Shown: positions 6,690 to 64,000 of the stretch, piece by piece
Numbering within the stretch: the stretch's first letter is position 1
Layout of the letters: each line of letters starts with the position of its first letter
Source of the DNA: Gammaproteobacteria bacterium
GTDB lineage: Bacteria > Pseudomonadota > Gammaproteobacteria > HK1
NCBI GenBank assembly: GCA_021773795.1
Contig: JAJFJT010000028.1
Span: 1-64,000, forward strand
DNA: 64,000 bases
Direction: 5' to 3'
Notes under the pieces: model-generated
Told to the model about the DNA's origin: nothing
The model's input: the letters and a program-made list of their open reading frames with translations, nothing else
Database searches by the model: none
Translations under genes and position numbers: made by a program

Positions 6690-6704
6690 CGGCTACCTCG
6701 TGAT

Positions 6705-6765
6705 GCGCTCAACTTTTTTACTCTTGCCTTGTCTTGCCTGGAAACTTGAATTTTTAGAGGCACCC
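6705..6765 (-). repeat. Element I, half copy (one terminal repeat)
   Basis: On the minus strand this reads GGGTGCCTCTAAAAATTCAA, then continues with the same bases as the first 60 positions of the full copies at 34780-34920 and 40377-40516 and stops at GAGCGCA. The other end is absent. It lies between hslU and the DUF971 gene. Confidence 0.8.
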
Positions 6766-6785
6766 TGAATTCCATGATCAGGCTC

Positions 6786-19045: not shown

Positions 19046-19072
19046 AATCAATGGGGTCAGACTCGATTGATT
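19046..19072 (+). repeat. RAYT-flanking 27-bp repeat, left copy
   Basis: A 27-bp sequence with core GGGGTCAGACTCGATTG between AATCAAT and ATTGATT-type arms. It is the exact reverse complement of 19835-19861. The two copies bracket the transposase gene. Confidence 0.9.
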
Positions 19073-19124
19073 GCCGACTCGCGTTACCGTACCATAGCCG
19101 ACCTATCTCATCGGATACGCCTCC

Positions 19125-19850
19125 ATGGCCCGACTACCCCGCTTCGTGTTGCCAGGACACCCACAGCATGTCGTGCTTCGTGGTAATAATCGGGAGCCTA
19201 TCTTCCACGCTGAGGCGGACTATCGGTTCTATCTGGAAAAACTTAAACAAGCCTGTGACAAACATGACTGCGCCGTACACGCCTATGCCTTAATGACCAA
19301 CCATGTCCATCTGCTGCTCACACCCTACAAAAATGATGGGCTACCCAAAACCATACAAATGCTTGGACGCTACTACGTCCAGTACTTTAATTATCGCTAT
19401 AAACGGACGGGAACTTTATGGGAAGGACGCTACAAGGCCACGTTAATAGACAGCGATGCCTATGCACTAACCTGCTACCGCTATATTGAACTCAACCCCG
19501 TCCGGGCTGCCGGGATGGTTAGCCATCCCAGCGAATACGCTTGGTCTAGCTATCGGTGCAACGCCTTGGGAGAAGCTGATTCACTGGTCGTTCCCCATGA
19601 ACTATACCAATCCCTCGGCGGTTCAAATTCGGAACGCCAAGGAGCCTACCGTGCCCTATTCCGAGCGCATATTGCTGATAAAACATTGGACGAAATCAGA
19701 GAGGCCACCAATAAAGCCTGGGTACTGGGCAGTGGCCAGTTCAAGGATAAAATAGACGCTCAACTCAATCGAGCCTCCGCCCCCAGAGCAAGGGGCGGAG
19801 ATCGAAAGTCAGATCAATATCAGGCTGGCAAGAGAATCAATCGAGTCTGA
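19125..19850 (+). CDS. REP-associated tyrosine transposase (RAYT, Y1/HUH type)
   Basis: A 241-residue IS200-like transposase. The family N-terminus MARLPRFVLPGHPQHVVLRG is followed by the HUH metal-binding motif H60-V-H62 (MTNHVHLLLTP), then YNRYKRTGTLWEGRYKATLI-type conserved residues and YRYIELNPVRAAGMV; the catalytic Tyr is expected near residues 113-120. Such enzymes cut and join single-stranded REP palindromes and usually exist once per genome rather than as true insertion sequences. The gene is bracketed by perfect 27-bp inverted repeats and its stop codon lies inside the right one. Confidence 0.95.
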   Translation: MARLPRFVLPGHPQHVVLRGNNREPIFHAEADYRFYLEKLKQACDKHDCAVHAYALMTNHVHLLLTPYKNDGLPKTIQMLGRYYVQYFNYRYKRTGTLWEGRYKATLIDSDAYALTCYRYIELNPVRAAGMVSHPSEYAWSSYRCNALGEADSLVVPHELYQSLGGSNSERQGAYRALFRAHIADKTLDEIREATNKAWVLGSGQFKDKIDAQLNRASAPRARGGDRKSDQYQAGKRINRV

Positions 19851-19861
19851 CCCCATTGATT
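19835..19861 (-). repeat. RAYT-flanking 27-bp repeat, right copy
   Basis: Exact inverted copy of 19046-19072. It holds the stop codons of two genes on opposite strands: TGA of the RAYT (19848-19850) and TGA of the PEP-CTERM gene (19837-19839). Confidence 0.9.
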
Positions 19862-20532
19862 CTCCATTGATTCTTGCGCGACACACCGATAGAAATTATT
19901 CCCAAAATCACAAGCAGCAGACTTGTGGGCTCAGGCACGTTGGCAGGCAACCCTGCAACTGTCAGATCCCAAGAATAGTTCCAGCCAACACGACCTGACC
20001 CCGCAAAGCCGAGACTCGCCGCTTCGGCGTACATTAAGTACGTCCCTGCGGAAAGTGTGATCGCTGGAATGTAGTTGTAAGAACCATTCACAAGAGGCGT
20101 AATAAATCCAGGATTTGCGGGTGAGCCCGTTCCTGTTTCATCCCAAATTCTAAAATCCACACCTACAGCGGAGTTGGTCTGAATCAAGTCAGTTACGGTG
20201 TATTGAAACGCGACCGTTGCAGTATCAGACAATGAAAATGTGAAGTGATCTCTTTCCCAGGTAAAAGGTGTCCCGCTTCGGGGATCATCCTTTTGAAAAA
20301 AGCTTGATCCCAATATTAGATTGGAACCATTGCTGAGCGCACCCACCGCTGTTCCGGTGTTAAGGGCACTAATACCGGATGACGGTGTAAAACCTGAAAG
20401 ATCTCCGTTTACTGCTTCGTCATATATGACACCTGCCGTGGCGTGGGTCGCGTGTAATAGGAAAGTTATGAAAATGATACGGGTTATAAAAGTTTGCTTT
20501 GCCATTGAGGCAAGGGCTCGCAAGTAGTCCAT
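19837..20532 (-). CDS. PEP-CTERM sorting-domain exported protein
   Basis: A 231-residue exported protein. A signal peptide is seen near ITRIIFITFLLHATHATAG, then a beta-rich domain of unknown function, and a C-terminal VPEPTSLLLVILGIISIGVS plus basic residues: the PEP-CTERM signal recognised by exosortase (EpsH/XrtA), which sends proteins to the cell surface or matrix. ATG at 20532 has AAGGAC 7 bases upstream; an in-frame extension to 20595 only reads through a repeat. The last ten residues (RINGVRLD region) are encoded by the RAYT-flanking repeat, so the native C-terminus has been replaced. No exosortase gene is in the window. Confidence 0.88.
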   Translation of the reverse strand: MDYLRALASMAKQTFITRIIFITFLLHATHATAGVIYDEAVNGDLSGFTPSSGISALNTGTAVGALSNGSNLILGSSFFQKDDPRSGTPFTWERDHFTFSLSDTATVAFQYTVTDLIQTNSAVGVDFRIWDETGTGSPANPGFITPLVNGSYNYIPAITLSAGTYLMYAEAASLGFAGSGRVGWNYSWDLTVAGLPANVPEPTSLLLVILGIISIGVSRKNQWRINGVRLD

Positions 20533-20555
20533 TGATAGTCCTTTATAGTCAGCGT

Positions 20556-20580
20556 TCAATGGGGTCAGACTCGATTGATT
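20556..20580 (+). repeat. RAYT-flanking repeat, third copy
   Basis: Twenty-five bases identical to the left copy (19046-19072), same orientation, 24 bases upstream of the PEP-CTERM start. The PEP-CTERM gene is thus bracketed by the same repeat as the RAYT gene. Confidence 0.88.
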
Positions 20581-20595
20581 TTCATCGTCAAGCAT

Positions 20596-20997
20596 TTCAT
20601 TTGCCTGCGAGGACTCGTCTCAAGCCTTCACCTCACAATCCTATAGGCAAAAAAAGGGCCAACTATATAATATTCTTATTTTTCAATCTATTACGTTAAC
20701 CCCGCTATAGGAGCGGGATTAAACTGTAAAAATATCTGACACTTTTCGAGTGTTTTTAGACTGAAATTCCTGAATAACGCCATCTTTTTAGAGAGGTTTG
20801 TGATTAAACTGTTGGAATTCCAATAGTTGGAATAGAAACAGACCAGTAAAAAATCCTGACAAAGGGCAAGGTTGTTAAAAAGGCGGAGGCAGATGAGGCC
20901 TCAGCATAGCCGCTCCCGGACTTCCTGCCCTCCGCGACATAAATCCATCCGTGGATAAAAGCTCACCCCTGTGCAAAACGCACAAGATTGATCCGCC
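20596..20997. other. 402-bp region without a gene
   Basis: AT-rich compared with its surroundings. It holds a small hairpin CCCGCT-ATAGG-AGCGGG at 20701-20717, a repeated TTGGAAT/ATTCCAA motif near 20812-20832 and a degenerate REP-like unit at 20909-20950. I see no credible coding frame and no clear promoter. Confidence 0.6.
20909..20950 (-). repeat. REP-like unit (type III), degenerate
   Basis: On the minus strand: GGATGGATTTATGTCGCGGA followed by a GGGCAGGAAGTCC...GAGCGGC arm. Matches the consensus GGATGGNNTTATGTCGCGAA but with diverged inner stem. Just downstream of the DUF1841 gene. Confidence 0.6.
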
Positions 20998-29115: not shown

Positions 29116-29128
29116 GGATTTTATCCAC

Positions 29129-29172
29129 GGATGGATTTACGTCGCGAAGCACATGGATGTGCGAGAGCGACG
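29129..29172 (+). repeat. REP-like unit (type III), well preserved
   Basis: GGATGGATTTACGTCGCGAA then GCACATGGATGTGCGAGAGCGACG. The double stem GTCGC...GCGAC around GCAC...GTGC is complete. A partial second unit (ATATGTCGCGAGAGC) follows at 29179-29193. It lies 13 bases upstream of the lptF start. Confidence 0.75.
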
Positions 29173-29336: not shown

Positions 29337-30935
29337 ATGGAATTTAGCGTTAAAAGCCGCTCCGCAGCGGCACCGCGTACTGCTTGTTTGGTACTTGGCG
29401 TGTATGAAAACGGCAAGCTACCCGCCACCACCGCCGCCATTGATCGCACGACGGATGGTTATCTCAGCAAGATCATCAAAGGCGGCGACCTGGAGGGCCA
29501 ACCCGGCCAAAGCCTCTTGCTGCACGCGGTGCCCGGCATCCCCTGTCAGCGCCTGTTGCTGGTGGGTGCGGGTCCAGAGGGCACGCTTAATGATCGGGCC
29601 TACGGAAAACTGCTGGGCTGTACCTTTAGCACGCTGGCGAGTAGCGGCACCCGGGAGGCCATGTTTCAGCTCGCCGAACTTGAGGTTGAGGGGCGTGACA
29701 CCGCATGGAAGTTAAGCCAGACGATTGCTGTCGGCCAGCAAAGTCTGTATCGATTTGATCGCCTCAAAACCGCTCTCGCACGCCCTGTGCTTCGCGGGGT
29801 AAGTCCATCCCTGGAAAAAAGTCGTGCGCCAAAGCGGCCCGCTCTTCGCCGTGTGTGTTTGCTGGTGGAACGCAAGGAACTGGCCAAGGCAAAGAAAACC
29901 CTTGCGCAGGCAGCAGCCACTGCCCATGGCGTGGACCTTGCCCAGGATCTTGCCAACCTGCCGGCCAATATCTGCACCCCGAACTATCTACTCAAGGAAG
30001 CCCGGAAAATTGCCCGTGGTCATAAGTCGGTAACAGTCCGTGCGCTGAATGAAGCCGCCATGAAAAAGCTGGGGATGGGCGCGCTGCTGTCTGTAGCCCA
30101 GGGCAGCCGAACCCCCCCACAGCTCATCATTATTCAATATAAGGGCGCAGCTGCCCGCCAAAAACCCGTGGCCCTGATAGGCAAGGGCGTCACCTTTGAC
30201 TCCGGCGGAATTTCCCTCAAGCCGGGTGCCGCCATGGATGAAATGAAGTTTGATATGTGCGGTGCAGCGACGGTACTGGGCACCATGGCCGCAGTAGCCG
30301 AAATGAAACTGCCGCTCAATCTGGTGGCCCTCATCCCGGCCACAGAAAACCTGCCGGATGGTAATGCCAGCAAGCCCGGCGATGTGGTCACTACCCTTTC
30401 CGGCCAGACCGTGGAAATTCTTAATACGGATGCCGAGGGCCGTCTGATCCTGTGCGATACGCTGAGCTATGCTGCACGCTTCAAACCAGAGCTAATGATT
30501 GACGTAGCCACCCTGACCGGTGCCTGCATGGTGGCCTTGGGCGGGCATCCATCAGGACTATTTAGCAATCACCCGCCGCTCGCCGCAGCGCTGTTAAAGG
30601 CGGGCACCTACAGCCAGGATCGAGCCTGGGAATTACCCCTGTGGGATGAATACCAGGATCAGCTAAAGAGTAATTTTGCAGACATGGCGAATATCGGCGG
30701 TCGCCATGGTGGTGCCATTACCGCCGCTGCCTTTCTCTCGCGTTTTGCTACCCACACCCATTGGGCACATCTGGATATTGCCGGTACTGCCTGGAAATCA
30801 GGTGCCAAAAAAGGCGCCACCGGGCGCCCGGTACCACTGTTGACGCGCTTTTTACTGGAGCACTGTGGAGTTTTGGCCAGGGATGGCCTTATGTCGCGAA
30901 GCACAGGACGTGCGAGAGGAACGCTTGGCCAGTGA
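29337..30935 (+). CDS. pepA: Leucyl aminopeptidase (M17) with REP-derived insertions
   Basis: A 532-residue cytosolic di-metal aminopeptidase removing N-terminal residues. The catalytic domain is complete: GKGVTFDSGGISLKPG, the signature NTDAEGRLIL and DVATLTGACMVALG. It is about 30 residues longer than usual (about 500) for two reasons visible in the DNA: a REP-like unit in reverse orientation at 29771-29814 is translated in frame (ARPVLRGVSPSLEK) in the linker between the N- and C-terminal domains, and a second unit at 30875-30924 supplies the last 20 residues (ARDGLMSRSTGRARG). Neither touches the active site. The ATG at 29337 has AGGA upstream. Confidence 0.95.
   Translation: MEFSVKSRSAAAPRTACLVLGVYENGKLPATTAAIDRTTDGYLSKIIKGGDLEGQPGQSLLLHAVPGIPCQRLLLVGAGPEGTLNDRAYGKLLGCTFSTLASSGTREAMFQLAELEVEGRDTAWKLSQTIAVGQQSLYRFDRLKTALARPVLRGVSPSLEKSRAPKRPALRRVCLLVERKELAKAKKTLAQAAATAHGVDLAQDLANLPANICTPNYLLKEARKIARGHKSVTVRALNEAAMKKLGMGALLSVAQGSRTPPQLIIIQYKGAAARQKPVALIGKGVTFDSGGISLKPGAAMDEMKFDMCGAATVLGTMAAVAEMKLPLNLVALIPATENLPDGNASKPGDVVTTLSGQTVEILNTDAEGRLILCDTLSYAARFKPELMIDVATLTGACMVALGGHPSGLFSNHPPLAAALLKAGTYSQDRAWELPLWDEYQDQLKSNFADMANIGGRHGGAITAAAFLSRFATHTHWAHLDIAGTAWKSGAKKGATGRPVPLLTRFLLEHCGVLARDGLMSRSTGRARGTLGQ
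29771..29814 (-). repeat. REP-like unit inside pepA (in-frame)
   Basis: On the minus strand: CCAGGGATGGACTTACCCCG, then CGAAGCACAGGGCGTGCGAGAGCG. It encodes about 15 residues of the pepA interdomain linker. Confidence 0.75.
30875..30924 (+). repeat. REP-like unit at the 3' end of pepA
   Basis: GGCCAGGGATGGCCTTATGT continues CGCGAAGCACAGGACGTGCGAGAG. It encodes the tail of PepA and pairs with an inverted unit at 30961-31006, giving a BIME-like arrangement. Confidence 0.78.
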
Positions 30936-30960
30936 CTGCTCTCCGGCGTCCTTGCACTCT

Positions 30961-31006
30961 TCGCTCCCGCACGTCCTTGCGCTTTGCGACATAAGTGCAT
31001 CCATGC
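30961..31006 (-). repeat. REP-like unit upstream of holC (inverted)
   Basis: On the minus strand: GCATGGATGCACTTATGTCG followed by CAAAGCGCAAGGACGTGCGGGAGCGA. It ends at the first possible ATG of holC (31003), so it forms the 5' boundary of that gene. Confidence 0.75.
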
Positions 31007-31011
31007 ACAAA

Positions 31012-31431
31012 ATGACCCAAGTCGATTTCTATATTCTTGAAAGCACCCAGGACGATGTCTCCCGCCTCGCTTGCCGACTGACGGAGAAAGCGTGGAAAGA
31101 AGGCAATAGAATCTTTATCCACACCAGTTCAGAGGCCGCGGCAGCCGCGCTCGACAAACTGCTCTGGACCTTTCGCCAGGGCAGCTTCATTCCCCATGCC
31201 CTGGCATCAGAGGTGGATGACACAGTTTCAATTTCCATTGGTCAGGGTGAAGCGCCCACGCAGCCTGCCGAGGTACTGATCAACTGTGGCGATAACATTC
31301 CAGCCTTTTTCAACCACTTCGATCGGGTGCTGGAAGCCGTAGCTGGAGACGATGACAGCCTGCAAGCAGGCCGGGCACGGTACCGCGACTATCAGACCCG
31401 GGAAATCACCCCGATTATTCACAAGATCTAA
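31012..31431 (+). CDS. holC: HolC, chi subunit of DNA polymerase III
   Basis: A 139-residue protein: TQVDFYILESTQDDVSRLAC at the N-terminus, then LTEKAWKEGNRIFIH, LLWTFRQGSFIPHAL and VLINCGD, the standard order in HolC. Chi links the clamp loader to SSB at the replication fork. The start is ATG 31012 or 31003; neither has a normal ribosome site because a REP-like unit occupies the upstream DNA. It follows pepA as in most gammaproteobacteria. Confidence 0.94.
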   Translation: MTQVDFYILESTQDDVSRLACRLTEKAWKEGNRIFIHTSSEAAAAALDKLLWTFRQGSFIPHALASEVDDTVSISIGQGEAPTQPAEVLINCGDNIPAFFNHFDRVLEAVAGDDDSLQAGRARYRDYQTREITPIIHKI

Positions 31432-31439
31432 CTCCGACC

Positions 31440-31955
31440 ATGCACAAAGAACCCAAGCCACCTGCCGACGACGGAATTACCGAAAACGGTGATGAATCAC
31501 TTCACCAGGCCATTGATGCCCTGGAGGGTATGCTGGACGGATCATCGGCCTCTTCCGAGCAAGAAACGGAGGATTTTTTCCCGGAAGCCGGTGATGAAGG
31601 TGAGCGCGAATTGCCTCTGCTTCAGGACATCGTTATGCCCGGTCATCCCGGTGTGGATAAACGTGACGACGGATGGAATGCCTACCGTGGCGGCCCCGAG
31701 GTGGAAGAGATTCGTAAACGTGTGCGCCAGCGACTAGCCAGTGAGATCGAGGTCATCGTCCAGTGTGGCTTTGAATCGGCCCTGCAGGACATCAGCAAGG
31801 AAATCCTGGCACGCCTGGAACAACACCTCGATATCGTCCTGCCGGAAATTCTCGACGAAATTTTGCCCAGGGATGGGCTTATGCAGCAAAGCTCAGGGAT
31901 GAGTGAGAGCGACGCTTTGCCTCCTGATAGCACAAAGACTCCAGATAATGGATAA
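31440..31955 (+). CDS. Uncharacterised acidic protein (DUF2486-like) between holC and valS
   Basis: A 171-residue acidic protein without membrane segments. Residues 1-75 are low-complexity and rich in Asp/Glu; residues 90-140 form an amphipathic helix-rich part ([35 protein letters not shown]). Comparable small genes occur between holC and valS and are sometimes labelled DUF2486; I cannot assign a function. The final 28 residues ([20 protein letters not shown]) are encoded by a REP-like unit and resemble the PepA tail. The end overlaps the valS start by 8 bp. Confidence 0.7.
31865..31914 (+). repeat. REP-like unit at the 3' end of the gene before valS
   Basis: GCCCAGGGATGGGCTTATGC followed by AGCAAAGCTCAGGGATGAGTGAGAGCGACG. 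The inner stem has changed to GCTC...GAGT, with the outer end GCGACG kept. Confidence 0.7.
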
Positions 31956-34779: not shown

Positions 34780-34920
34780 GGGTGCCTCTAAAAACTCAAG
34801 TTTCCATGCAAAACAAGGCATGAGTGAAAAAGTTGGGCGCAGCATATGTCTGATATGTAAGCGAAACTTTTTTGCGAGAAACGCCGTATTGCGATGACAA
34901 TTGTGTTTTTAGAGGTGCCC
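34780..34920. mobile_element. Element I, full copy (MITE-like, 141 bp)
   Basis: Terminal inverted repeats GGGTGCCTCTAAAAA and TTTTTAGAGGTGCCC enclose a 110-bp interior that itself folds (AAAAAGTT ... AACTTTTTT around CATATG...ATATG). ATAT flanks both ends and may be a target duplication. No coding capacity. It ends two bases before the cysE start codon. Confidence 0.88.
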
Positions 34921-36642: not shown

Positions 36643-36692
36643 CGTCGCTCTCGCACATCCCTGTGCTTCGCGACATAAGGCCATCCAAGGCC
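36643..36692 (-). repeat. REP-like unit (type III) after iscA
   Basis: On the minus strand: CCTTGGATGGCCTTATGTCG followed by CGAAGCACAGGGATGTGCGAGAGCGACG. One of the best-preserved copies, with both stems complete. Confidence 0.8.
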
Positions 36693-36774
36693 AAATTTTC
36701 TTAGCCGGGCTCGCACACGTATAATCATCCGATCCGTTTGTCACTAATCACCGGGAAAGTGGCAAACAATTTAC

Positions 36775-40376: not shown

Positions 40377-40516
40377 GGGTGCCTCTAGAAATTCAAGTTT
40401 CCAGGCAAGACAAGGCATGAGTAAAAAAGTTGAGCGCAGCATATGTTTGATATGTGAGCGAAACTTTTTTGCGAGCAACGCCGTGTTGCGACGATAGTGT
40501 ATTTTTAGAGGTGCCC
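40377..40516. mobile_element. Element I, full copy (MITE-like, 140 bp)
   Basis: GGGTGCCTCTAGAAA and TTTTTAGAGGTGCCC ends around an interior nearly identical to 34780-34920, in the same orientation. It begins two bases after the rodZ stop. No coding capacity. An 83-bp spacer follows before hisS. Confidence 0.88.
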
Positions 40517-57972: not shown

Positions 57973-58428
57973 ATGTTCAAGAAAGTCCTCTATCCCATCG
58001 ACGTATCCGAAGGTGGCCTCTGCCGCGATGCCCTGGACGAGGTGGTGGAAGAAGTACACAAATGGGGTGCCACCCTCTATCTCATCTATGTGCTACCCGG
58101 GTTTAACATGCCGCTGGTGGCCAGCTTTTTTCCCAAGGATGCGGAAAAGAAAGCCCGTGCGACCGCCAAGACACAACTGGAAGCATATATACAGGAGCAT
58201 ATCCCCGAGGGACTGCCAGTGGAGCCAGTACTGCGTCAGGGCACAGCTTATGAAGAGATTCTGGCCGAATCCCGGAAGCAGGACATCGATCTCATTATCA
58301 TCCCTGGGCAGGATCACCCGTCTATGGAGAAGTGGCTGTTGGGAACGACCACCTCAAAAGTGGTTCGCCATGCCCGCTGCTCAGTGCTGGTACTGAGGCA
58401 CTGCGGAGAGCGCAACAAAGACACGTAG
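57973..58428 (+). CDS. Universal stress protein (UspA family)
   Basis: A 151-residue protein with an N-terminal LYPIDVSEGGLCRDAL strand-helix and a C-terminal IIPGQDHPSMEKWLLGTTTS then VVRHARCSVLVL, a modified G-x2-G-x9-G(T) nucleotide-binding loop (His replaces the second Gly). UspA genes are frequently attached to TRAP operons (TeaD-type regulators of TRAP activity); it starts 20 bp after the permease. A role in modulating transport is inferred. Confidence 0.92.
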   Translation: MFKKVLYPIDVSEGGLCRDALDEVVEEVHKWGATLYLIYVLPGFNMPLVASFFPKDAEKKARATAKTQLEAYIQEHIPEGLPVEPVLRQGTAYEEILAESRKQDIDLIIIPGQDHPSMEKWLLGTTTSKVVRHARCSVLVLRHCGERNKDT

Positions 58429-58502
58429 GGGGCAGCCCATGGCTGCCTTCCCGTCCGCCTGATAGCAATGGTTGCCGCAAGAACGCACGGCGAGAGCGGC
58501 TT

Positions 58503-58560
58503 TGGCCAGGAAGGGCCTTATATCGTGGAGCACAGGACGTGCGAGGGCATCCCGTGGCCG
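58503..58560 (+). repeat. REP-like unit (type III) after uspA
   Basis: TGGCCAGGAAGGGCCTTATA followed by TCGTGGAGCACAGGACGTGCGAGGGCATC. The inner GCAC...GTGC stem is kept, the outer is degraded. Confidence 0.7.
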
Positions 58561-58561
58561 C

Positions 58562-58603
58562 CTTCCGCATCCGGCTCCGCTACCCCCTCCGACATAACGG
58601 ACC
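58562..58603 (-). repeat. REP-like unit (type III), inverted partner
   Basis: On the minus strand: CAGGTCCGTTATGTCGGAGG and a GGTAGCGGAGCC arm. It forms a head-to-head pair with 58503-58560 and ends 8 bases before the aminotransferase ATG, removing any normal ribosome site. Confidence 0.6.
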
Positions 58604-58610
58604 TGTCGCC

Positions 58611-59939
58611 ATGAACCACCTCTTCCATCGCCACTGCCACTCTACCCTGCCCATCGCCACCGGCGGCGAAGGTCCCTACGTCTTCGACGAGACCGGAAAA
58701 CGCTACCTGGACGCCTGTGGTGGCGCCGCAGTCTGTTGCCTCGGCTACGGCCATCCCGCGGTGCGTGAGGCCATACATAAACAGACGGAAAAACTCGCCT
58801 ATATACATTCCTCCTTTTTCACCACGGAAGCAGCCGAAGCACTCGGGGATAAACTTGCTGCGGCGGCCCCACCGGGCATTGAACGCAGCTATCTCGTCAC
58901 CGGGGGCTCCGAGGCGGTGGAGGCCGCCCTCAAGCTGGCGCGTCAGTATTTCCTTGAACGCGGCGAACCCCAGCGACGCCACTTCATAGCCCGCCGCCAG
59001 AGCTATCACGGCAACACTCTGGGGGCACTGGCAGTCGGTGGCAATGCCTGGCGGCGCGAGGCCTTTCAACCGTTGTTGGTAGAAAGCCACCACATTGCGC
59101 CCTGCTACGCCTATCGTGACCAACACGCGGATGAAAACGAGACCGCCTATGGCCTGCGCGTAGCCAACGAACTGGAAGCCAAAATTGAAGCCCTTGGCGC
59201 CGAAACCGTCATCGGCTTTATCGCCGAACCCGTAGTGGGCGCCACCGCCGGTGCAGTGTCCCCCGTGCCCGGCTACTTCAAACGCATCCGCGAGATCTGC
59301 GATCGCCACGGTATCCTGCTGATACTGGACGAAGTGATGTGTGGCATGGGGCGTACCGGCAGCCTGTTCGCCTGCGAGCAGGAAGACATCGTTCCCGACC
59401 TCATAACGGTCGCCAAGGGTCTCGGTGCCGGCTATCAACCCATCGGCGCATTGTTGGCGAGCGATGAAATCTACCGTACCGTGCGCGACGGCAGTGGCTT
59501 CTTTCAGCATGGCCACACCTACATGGGCCACGCCACCGCCTGCGCCGCGTCGCTCGCAGTGCTGGAAACCATCGAGAAAGAAGGATTACTCGAGCAGGTC
59601 CGGTTGCATGGCCGACAACTCCGTGCAGCCCTGCATGACCGCTTCGACGCACACCCCCACATCGGTGATATTCGTGGCCGCGGGCTGTTTCTCGGCCTGG
59701 AACTGGTGGCCAATCGTGAAACCAAAACACCATTTGACCCCGCCCTCGGACTCCATCGGGCAGTAAAAAAAGAGGCCATGGCCCACGGACTCATGATCTA
59801 CCCCATGGGTGGCACTATCGATGGCCAACACGGTGACCATATCCTGTTGGCACCGCCCTTTATTATCGAGGAATCACATATAGGAGAAATGGTTGAAAAA
59901 CTGGCTGAGGCGGTTGATACGACCACTTTAGCTTATTAA
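58611..59939 (+). CDS. Class III (omega-type) PLP aminotransferase
   Basis: A 442-residue fold-type I enzyme. LDACGGAAVCCLGYGHPAV near residue 35, GGSEAVEAALKLARQY (PLP phosphate), the Asp in LLILDEVMCGMGRTG and the PLP Lys in ITVAKGLGAGYQPIGALL are present. Family members transaminate omega-amino acids, aspartate-like compounds or amines with pyruvate or 2-oxoglutarate; the substrate is not certain. ATG at 58611 has no good ribosome site because of the adjacent REP-like unit. It lies after the TAXI-permease-usp genes. Confidence 0.93.
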   Translation: MNHLFHRHCHSTLPIATGGEGPYVFDETGKRYLDACGGAAVCCLGYGHPAVREAIHKQTEKLAYIHSSFFTTEAAEALGDKLAAAAPPGIERSYLVTGGSEAVEAALKLARQYFLERGEPQRRHFIARRQSYHGNTLGALAVGGNAWRREAFQPLLVESHHIAPCYAYRDQHADENETAYGLRVANELEAKIEALGAETVIGFIAEPVVGATAGAVSPVPGYFKRIREICDRHGILLILDEVMCGMGRTGSLFACEQEDIVPDLITVAKGLGAGYQPIGALLASDEIYRTVRDGSGFFQHGHTYMGHATACAASLAVLETIEKEGLLEQVRLHGRQLRAALHDRFDAHPHIGDIRGRGLFLGLELVANRETKTPFDPALGLHRAVKKEAMAHGLMIYPMGGTIDGQHGDHILLAPPFIIEESHIGEMVEKLAEAVDTTTLAY

Positions 59940-60176: not shown

Positions 60177-60241
60177 CACCCTCTTGGGCATCAACTGATA
60201 CTTGAGAGGAAACAATAAACTTTATACAGAGGTAGTTTCCA

Positions 60242-61294
60242 ATGAAGAAAAAGGCACTTGCTATTGCTATAGCCGCCGCCCTGACTGCGCCCATGGCGGC
60301 CCATGCCGTCAAGATGAAGGTCTCCGGCCAGATAAATAAGGCTCTGATGTATGCCGATGACGGCACCTTCTCCCAAACCCAGATCGTTGATAACGACAAC
60401 TCCTCCACCCGCATCCGCTTCACCGGCAGCGAGGACATGGGCAACGGCATCACTGCCGGCTTCGCCCTTGAGGTTCAGGAACAGTCCAACCCGTCCAACG
60501 ACGTCACCATGAAGCAGACTGGTGATATCGGTGATAACGGCGACGGCACTGTCCCGTTCTTTGAGCGTCGCGCCGCTGTGTACTTCAAGGGTGGCTTCGG
60601 TCGCGTCCTGCTGGGTCAGTACCAGGTAGCCGCTGATGGCGCCGTGGAAAAAGATCTCTCCGGCACCTCCCTGGCTGACTACGGCAGCCGTCAGGCCGTT
60701 GGTGGTGATATCGCCTATCGTGTCGGCGCTGCCGGCATCGGTGACATCGAAGCCAACTACAACAACTTCGATGGCCTTAGCCGTCGCGACGTCCTGCGCT
60801 ACGATACACCCAAGATTGGCCCCGGAATTGTTGGTGCGGTTTCTGGTGGTGCTGACTTCTGGGACGCCGCTGTGCACGTTAAAACCTCCTTCGCTGGTGG
60901 CAAATTTGCAGCCGGTGCTGCCTATACCAGCCAGCCCGCGCGCGACACCACGGGCCTGTCTGCTTCCTTCCTCTTCTCCCAGGGCACCAGCATCACCGCC
61001 CATTGGGCCGAGCAGGATAATGATGGTGTAGGCTCACGTGACCCGGACGTCTATGGCATCAAGCTTGGCCACAAGTTTGGTAAAAACGCCGTCTCCGTCA
61101 GCTACTCCGAGGCATCTAATGTCGCGGCAGCGGGTCGGGACGCCGAGGTCATCAGCCTGGCTTGGGTGCACAAGCTGAAGAAGCCCAAGGTTGAGCTCTA
61201 TGCCCTGTATCGTAACTGGGAACTCAATGGTGCCGGTACTGCCGGTGCTGATGAAATCGACATCGTCATGGTCGGTTCCCGGATCAAGTTCTAA
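60242..61294 (+). CDS. General porin 1 (Gram-negative trimeric porin)
   Basis: A 350-residue outer-membrane beta-barrel. Signal peptide KKKALAIAIAAALTAPMAAHA, cleaved before VKMKVSGQINKALMYADDG, the first barrel strand. GGFGRVLLGQYQVAADGAVE matches the family loop, and the terminal aromatic is Phe (MVGSRIKF), the BAM signal. About 16 strands, allowing passive entry of small solutes. Nearly identical in its start to the porin at 63640. Confidence 0.94.
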   Translation: MKKKALAIAIAAALTAPMAAHAVKMKVSGQINKALMYADDGTFSQTQIVDNDNSSTRIRFTGSEDMGNGITAGFALEVQEQSNPSNDVTMKQTGDIGDNGDGTVPFFERRAAVYFKGGFGRVLLGQYQVAADGAVEKDLSGTSLADYGSRQAVGGDIAYRVGAAGIGDIEANYNNFDGLSRRDVLRYDTPKIGPGIVGAVSGGADFWDAAVHVKTSFAGGKFAAGAAYTSQPARDTTGLSASFLFSQGTSITAHWAEQDNDGVGSRDPDVYGIKLGHKFGKNAVSVSYSEASNVAAAGRDAEVISLAWVHKLKKPKVELYALYRNWELNGAGTAGADEIDIVMVGSRIKF

Positions 61295-63575: not shown

Positions 63576-63639
63576 TGTCTCCTAGCAACGATTTTTGGGG
63601 TACGTAGTACGTTCTTATAATATTAAGGGGTAGTTTCCA

Positions 63640-64000
63640 ATGAAGAAAAAGGCACTAGCACTTGCTATCGCCAGCGCCCTGACCGTGCCAATGGCGGCTC
63701 ATGCCGTCAAGGTGAAGGTCTCGGGTCAGGTCAACAAAGCACTGCTGTATGGAGATGACGGCGTCTTCTCCCAGACACAGATTGTCGATAACGACAACTC
63801 CTCCACCCGCTTCCGTTTCACCGGCAGCGAAGATCTGGGCAACGGCATTACTGCCGGCATCCACTTCGAGGTTCAGGAACAGTCCAATCCGTCTAACGAC
63901 GTCACCATGAAGCAGACCGGTGATATCGGTGATAACGGTGATGGCACCGTTCCGTTCTTTGAGCGCGTTGCTGCGGTCTACTTCAAGGGTTCCTTCGGTA
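63640..64000 (+). CDS. General porin 2, N-terminal part (cut by window edge)
   Basis: The first 120 codons of a second porin. The signal peptide KKKALALAIASALTVPMAAHA and the barrel start VKVKVSGQVNKALLYGDDGV differ from porin 1 by few conservative changes; the stretch through NDVTMKQTGDIGDNGDGTVP is identical. The immediate leader TAGTTTCCA before the ATG is also shared. It is a recent duplicate, 2.3 kb from porin 1 with a methyltransferase gene between. Confidence 0.93.
   Translation, partial: MKKKALALAIASALTVPMAAHAVKVKVSGQVNKALLYGDDGVFSQTQIVDNDNSSTRFRFTGSEDLGNGITAGIHFEVQEQSNPSNDVTMKQTGDIGDNGDGTVPFFERVAAVYFKGSFG

Follow-up and report, generated by a model that had tools for sequence, protein, structure and literature searches.

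The window, a stretch of 64,000 nucleotides from a gammaproteobacterial genome (G000, a draft of 36 contigs; the compared genomes are also drafts), carries the gene for a leucyl aminopeptidase, pepA, together with copies of a short palindromic repeat element. Copies were scored with a covariance model (CM). The features are as follows.

20909-20959, minus strand: intergenic copy (CM 60.2 bits).
29120-29171, plus strand: intergenic copy directly upstream of lptF, a minus-strand gene named by position (CM 79.2 bits).
29337-30935, plus strand: pepA (leucyl aminopeptidase, M17), 532 aa, two segments of which derive from the element (open reading frame; Pfam Peptidase_M17 and M17_N; NCBIfam leucyl aminopeptidase).
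29769-29819, minus strand: linker copy, a 51-nt element that forms codons 145-161 (TALARPVLRGVSPSLEK) of pepA (CM 60.9 bits; 51-bp absence in congeners; flank joining).
30872-30922, plus strand: C-terminal copy, the last ~20 PepA residues, the tail continuing to the stop at 30933 (CM 74.6 bits).
30960-31011, minus strand: partner copy in inverted orientation, lying between pepA and holC and ending one base before the holC ATG (CM 70.2 bits).
31012-31431, plus strand: putative holC (DNA polymerase III chi), 139 aa (best NCBIfam family match, below the family cut-off).
31862-31913, plus strand: copy forming the C-terminal part of the conserved open reading frame 31440-31955 (in congener G001 too; empty site in congener G002).
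36644-36695, minus strand: intergenic copy, at the matching place in G001 and G002 (CM 81.5 bits; spanning alignments).
58501-58551, plus strand: copy at the start of open reading frame 58332-59939, the true start probably lying downstream of it (CM 55.8 bits).

PepA of the window is 86% identical to PepA of the congeners G001 and G002, and both its M17 N-terminal and catalytic domains are recognized by Pfam. Residues K283, D288, K295, D306, D365, E367 and R369 of the active site are invariant among 30 homologues; the claim of a preliminary description, that the active-site motifs are intact, is thus borne out. This conservation of metal ligands and catalytic residues, with the Pfam and NCBIfam assignments, is that of an M17 enzyme, which is probably active as a hexamer. 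An AlphaFold model made with the 30 homologues has a mean pLDDT of 81. The adjoining domains fold, and values below 50 are found in both added stretches (149-163 and 515-532) as well as in two further short stretches (289-303 and 451-454). Both element-derived segments are therefore predicted to be disordered.

The linker copy is read in frame, at codon phase 0, and falls between the two domains according to the alignment with Escherichia coli PepA (1gyt), as had been described. Do near relatives have a PepA linker of equal length? Those compared, G001 and G002, are shorter: exactly 51 bp are absent at this site in both, a single gap in the DNA alignment that delimits the insert. At the protein level they read YRFDRLKS(K/D)APK, as against YRFDRLKTALARPVLRGVSPSLEKSRAPK in the window. 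Removal of TTT and the 48-nt two-hairpin core from the window sequence leaves GATCGCCTCAAAAGTCG, which aligns with GATCGCCTTAAAAGCAA and GACCGCCTGAAAAGCGA of the two relatives.

The C-terminal copy has a different character. The preliminary description gave a second unit as the C-terminal 20 residues; about 20 residues do come from the element, but the copy replaces the gene end and interrupts nothing, and an insertion that leaves the old PepA end intact was rejected. PepA ends in HCGVLARDGLMSRSTGRARGTLGQ and a stop in the window, as against HCGAAS and a stop in G002; the G001 end, HCQVAKDGSLDQ and a stop, possibly includes a decayed remnant of the element. G001 also has a related copy at the matching position between pepA and holC (L155:15600-15659). 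As the C-terminal copy pairs with the inverted copy before holC (30872-30922 with 30960-31011; RNA fold -75.2 kcal/mol, z -6.65), the tail codons of PepA serve at the same time as an arm of a long pepA-holC hairpin.

The element unit consists of TTT and two adjacent hairpins, each with a loop of the CA-(G/T)GGA-TG type. Among 33 aligned copies the stems of both hairpins covary: 91.2% of cells are paired, changes on both sides are found in 10 of 15 stem pairs, and the covariation score was reached by none of 500 shuffles; the signal is lost when pairing partners are slid. A copy nested inside another copy fixes the insert as TTT plus 48 nt, i.e. 51 nt, without target duplication. Size is not strictly constant, as copies with a 14-nt loop are 52 nt long, and this longer-loop form is also common (56 vs 73 copies when classed by match length). 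In the consensus, stops fall in a single frame and the other five are open. Individual copies have a mean of 4.3 open frames vs 3.6 in dinucleotide shuffles, a figure that is indicative only, as the copies are related. There was no match in the window to any curated Rfam covariance model at E up to 1, nor did an exact-pattern search of viral contigs or a plasmid search give a match.

In the three congeneric genomes the covariance model matches number at least 80 (G000), 47 (G001) and 52 (G002), with ~150 candidates scored per genome and a few matches being overlapping readings of nested copies. Most G000 copies are intergenic. Of 63 that were scanned by their flanks, three (~5%) are interior to genes, those in PepA, GltX and RlmD, and none is an interior frame-breaking copy. 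GltX of G000 is 51 bp longer than the empty sites of both relatives, although local indels adjoin the insertion, so that the net gain of 51 does not correspond to one clean unit. RlmD of G000 is 102 bp longer than its empty sites; the insert is a composite in which the loop of one element holds a second. Since composites of this kind are seen at several other places as well, the two elements may have travelled together. The reverse comparison is also found: ValS of G002 has 51 bp that the window ValS lacks, and a lipoprotein gene of G001 has 51 bp where the compared site is empty. Empty sites demonstrate that the element is mobile. Insertion has occurred repeatedly, both in genes and within the element itself and in both orientations, at nearly constant size and without target duplication where a boundary is readable. 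Further C-terminal cases are a four-carbon acid sugar kinase-like protein and a TPR-like protein.

Several candidates were set aside. L112 is intergenic, between galU-like and dapA-like genes, and two interior flags marked as out of frame proved to be gene-gene junctions. N-terminal cases (MMPL paralogues in L119 and L121, TsaE in L114, and open reading frame 58332) were left uncounted because the true start may be downstream; in 58332-59939 the portion preceding the copy has a negative coding score. Both MMPL-family paralogues (L119:6467-9130 and L121:444-3104) open with an element-encoded N-terminus, which may precede the real start. In two congeners a TrpC-like gene (indole-3-glycerol phosphate synthase-like, by eye) takes its stop codon from the element and ends in ELFTGM (L122:2288-3094, L158:3210-4016). 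A composite of ~102-112 nt recurs in L157, L140, L142, L220, L221, L223 and L226: a GGCC-stem copy whose loop holds a GTAC-stem variant in inverted orientation.

The window has other repeats as well. A dispersed repeat of 66-118 nt, with copies 89-95% alike and in both orientations (6701-6766, 34780-34897 and 40377-40494), has the ends TTTTTAGAGG(C/T)(G/A)CCC. A 300-nt direct duplication, 85% identical, is at 60223-60522 and 63621-63920. A Y1_Tnp (RAYT-like) match at 19167-19490 is flanked by AATCAATGGGGTCAGACTCGATTGATT copies, which represent a different repeat family (19046-20580).

How far does the element extend beyond the genus? Of 14 family mates, a single one gave a match, of one copy, to the first covariance model (R1), and G025 and G037 gave weaker matches. 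A second, wider model, made from these R1 finds, was run on 143 gammaproteobacterial genomes and gave matches in 39. The element is both widely distributed and old. G037, which belongs to another family, has 17 matches, of which at least 11 are in frame within genes and others are at gene ends. Most of its detected copies are in frame within housekeeping genes (L232, L236, L253, L254, L256, L257 and L259, and congeners). Eight G037 genes have 17 additional residues, the empty allele being present in one or more of the congeners compared (G158, G159 and G160): Alr, RibD, a NifS-like desulfurase, a Rep-type helicase, PabB, GcvT, IspE and PcnB, some of these names being Pfam-backed and the rest taken from reading the translated sequence. 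In G159 four of these genes, those for Alr, RibD, the desulfurase and IspE, have a second element within the first, with the frame still intact. Among 40 copies in eight other gammaproteobacterial genera, none was clearly inserted within a gene, and the in-gene habit is therefore limited to particular lineages and is not general. In the two genera together, the element has entered pepA and about a dozen other housekeeping genes in frame. Insertion without loss of frame had been described as uncommon, and as having happened twice in one gene; the frame is indeed kept, but that view is too narrow, as the 51-nt element is also in frame in GltX, RlmD, ValS and the lipoprotein, as well as in eight or more genes of the second genus.

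Very probably, pepA was struck by copies of a mobile hairpin, small and non-autonomous, the frame being kept and the disordered peptide tolerated. One copy inserted in the inter-domain linker and another replaced the C-terminus. The element enters without target duplication and leaves most reading frames free of stops, and since 51 nt is 17 codons, an insertion within a gene preserves the frame; at a surface loop or a gene end it might then be tolerated as a disordered peptide. Given the 17-codon size, in-gene insertions would often be survivable with no need of a selected function. The element peptides are probably translated and harmless. That the extra residues represent ordinary variation is scarcely credible. 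PepA linker and C-terminus lengths do differ among relatives, and repeat likeness might arise by chance, but the two copies score 60.9 and 74.6 bits (both were among the model's own seeds), and a DNA search with a different copy as query also recovers them, with E 1.5e-8 (linker) and 1e-7 (C-terminal). Same-size insertions of the element elsewhere also speak against this explanation, and the exact 51-bp empty sites and the nested copy refute it. An assembly artefact, conceivable in a 36-contig draft, can be given almost no weight, as the copies all differ, reading frames run through them, and independent draft genomes give equivalent insertions in other genes. Might the peptide instead be useful, so that the element is retained in genes as a domesticated source of linkers, beyond mere tolerance? 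Most detected G037 copies are in genes, one frame (VQGCTNAAGAGC..-like, small residues) predominates among them, and the GcvT, Rep, PcnB and BatB insertions are common to two or three congeners of that genus. Yet insertions differ between congeners and none is common across genera; unrelated proteins are struck, in several frames, and disorder is predicted in PepA. Retention for usefulness is thus quite unlikely.

The preliminary description spoke of two translated REP units. Two palindromic copies do lie in frame in pepA, but the REP label is loose. REPs are moved by RAYTs, and it is unlikely, if somewhat arguable, that classical GTAG/CGTC REP units moved by a resident RAYT transposase landed in pepA by chance. 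Short palindromes, inverted dimers and 11 Y1_Tnp matches in the G000 genome, which are candidate mobilizers, agree with such an origin, and intragenic REPs are on record (PMC3733652). The element, however, has no unpaired GTAG/CGTC tag: its ends are TTT and a GCGAC that is paired, the GTCG end lying in a stem. At 51-52 nt and with two hairpins it also differs from the single stem-loop of 20-40 nt of a classical REP. None of the eight Y1_Tnp loci scanned (three weaker matches were left out) is closely flanked by the element, as the gene of a RAYT-associated REPtron would be; a single element match near a Y1_Tnp gene was seen, ~1.4 kb from that of the window. Y1 transposases of the IS200/IS605 type mobilize single strands with hairpin ends and leave no duplication; by analogy, the element may be moved by an HUH/Y1-type transposase (IS200/IS605-like) that works on hairpins in single-stranded DNA.

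In-frame palindromes are already known. Rickettsial RPEs are described as mobile palindromic elements found in frame in housekeeping genes that are unrelated to one another; of the R. conorii copies described first, nearly half were in open reading frames (PMC10969869). The present element resembles them in being in frame, with empty orthologues, in several unrelated genes, i.e. those for PepA, GltX, RlmD, ValS, the lipoprotein and eight proteins of the second genus. RPEs are described as ~150 bp, with some shorter RPE-4 and RPE-6 that have a CGTC tag, whereas the element here is 51 nt with two hairpins, lacks an unpaired CGTC, is gammaproteobacterial, and has a 17-codon size and in-frame self-nesting. 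Intragenic GTAG/CGTC REPs are translated within genes of several proteobacteria, tRNA synthetases among them (Di Nocera et al. 2013, PMC3733652), and sometimes there are two inserts per gene, as in uvrA of O. terrae. These share with the present copies that they are short palindromes within genes, even twice per gene, but they are tagged single hairpins of 20-40 bp, the GTAG type being RAYT-linked (PMC3733652); the element has two hairpins and neither tag, no linked RAYT was found at the loci scanned, and empty sites are given at base level. With REPINs, BIMEs and MITEs it has in common that it is non-autonomous, of high copy number and often in inverted pairs; in apparent contrast to them, its nested copy has no target duplication. 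By comparison, the element behaves like an RPE without the defining tags of classical REPs, and what is new is an independent gammaproteobacterial sequence family.

In-frame palindromic elements have been thought a near-speciality of Rickettsia, with REP cases scattered elsewhere. Here a repeat with the appearance of a DNA parasite repeatedly supplies new segments to working proteins. The clean empty sites and the nearly constant 51 bp make tolerance, spread and protein effects testable in pairs of near-identical enzymes, PepA, GltX, ValS, Alr and RibD among others. A wider reading is possible, if rather doubtful: that of a class-wide hairpin element whose 17-codon length and scarcity of stops were selected because in-gene copies survive, and which in at least one genus is mainly in-gene and self-nesting. 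If so, such a genus would continually draw new protein segments from the element.
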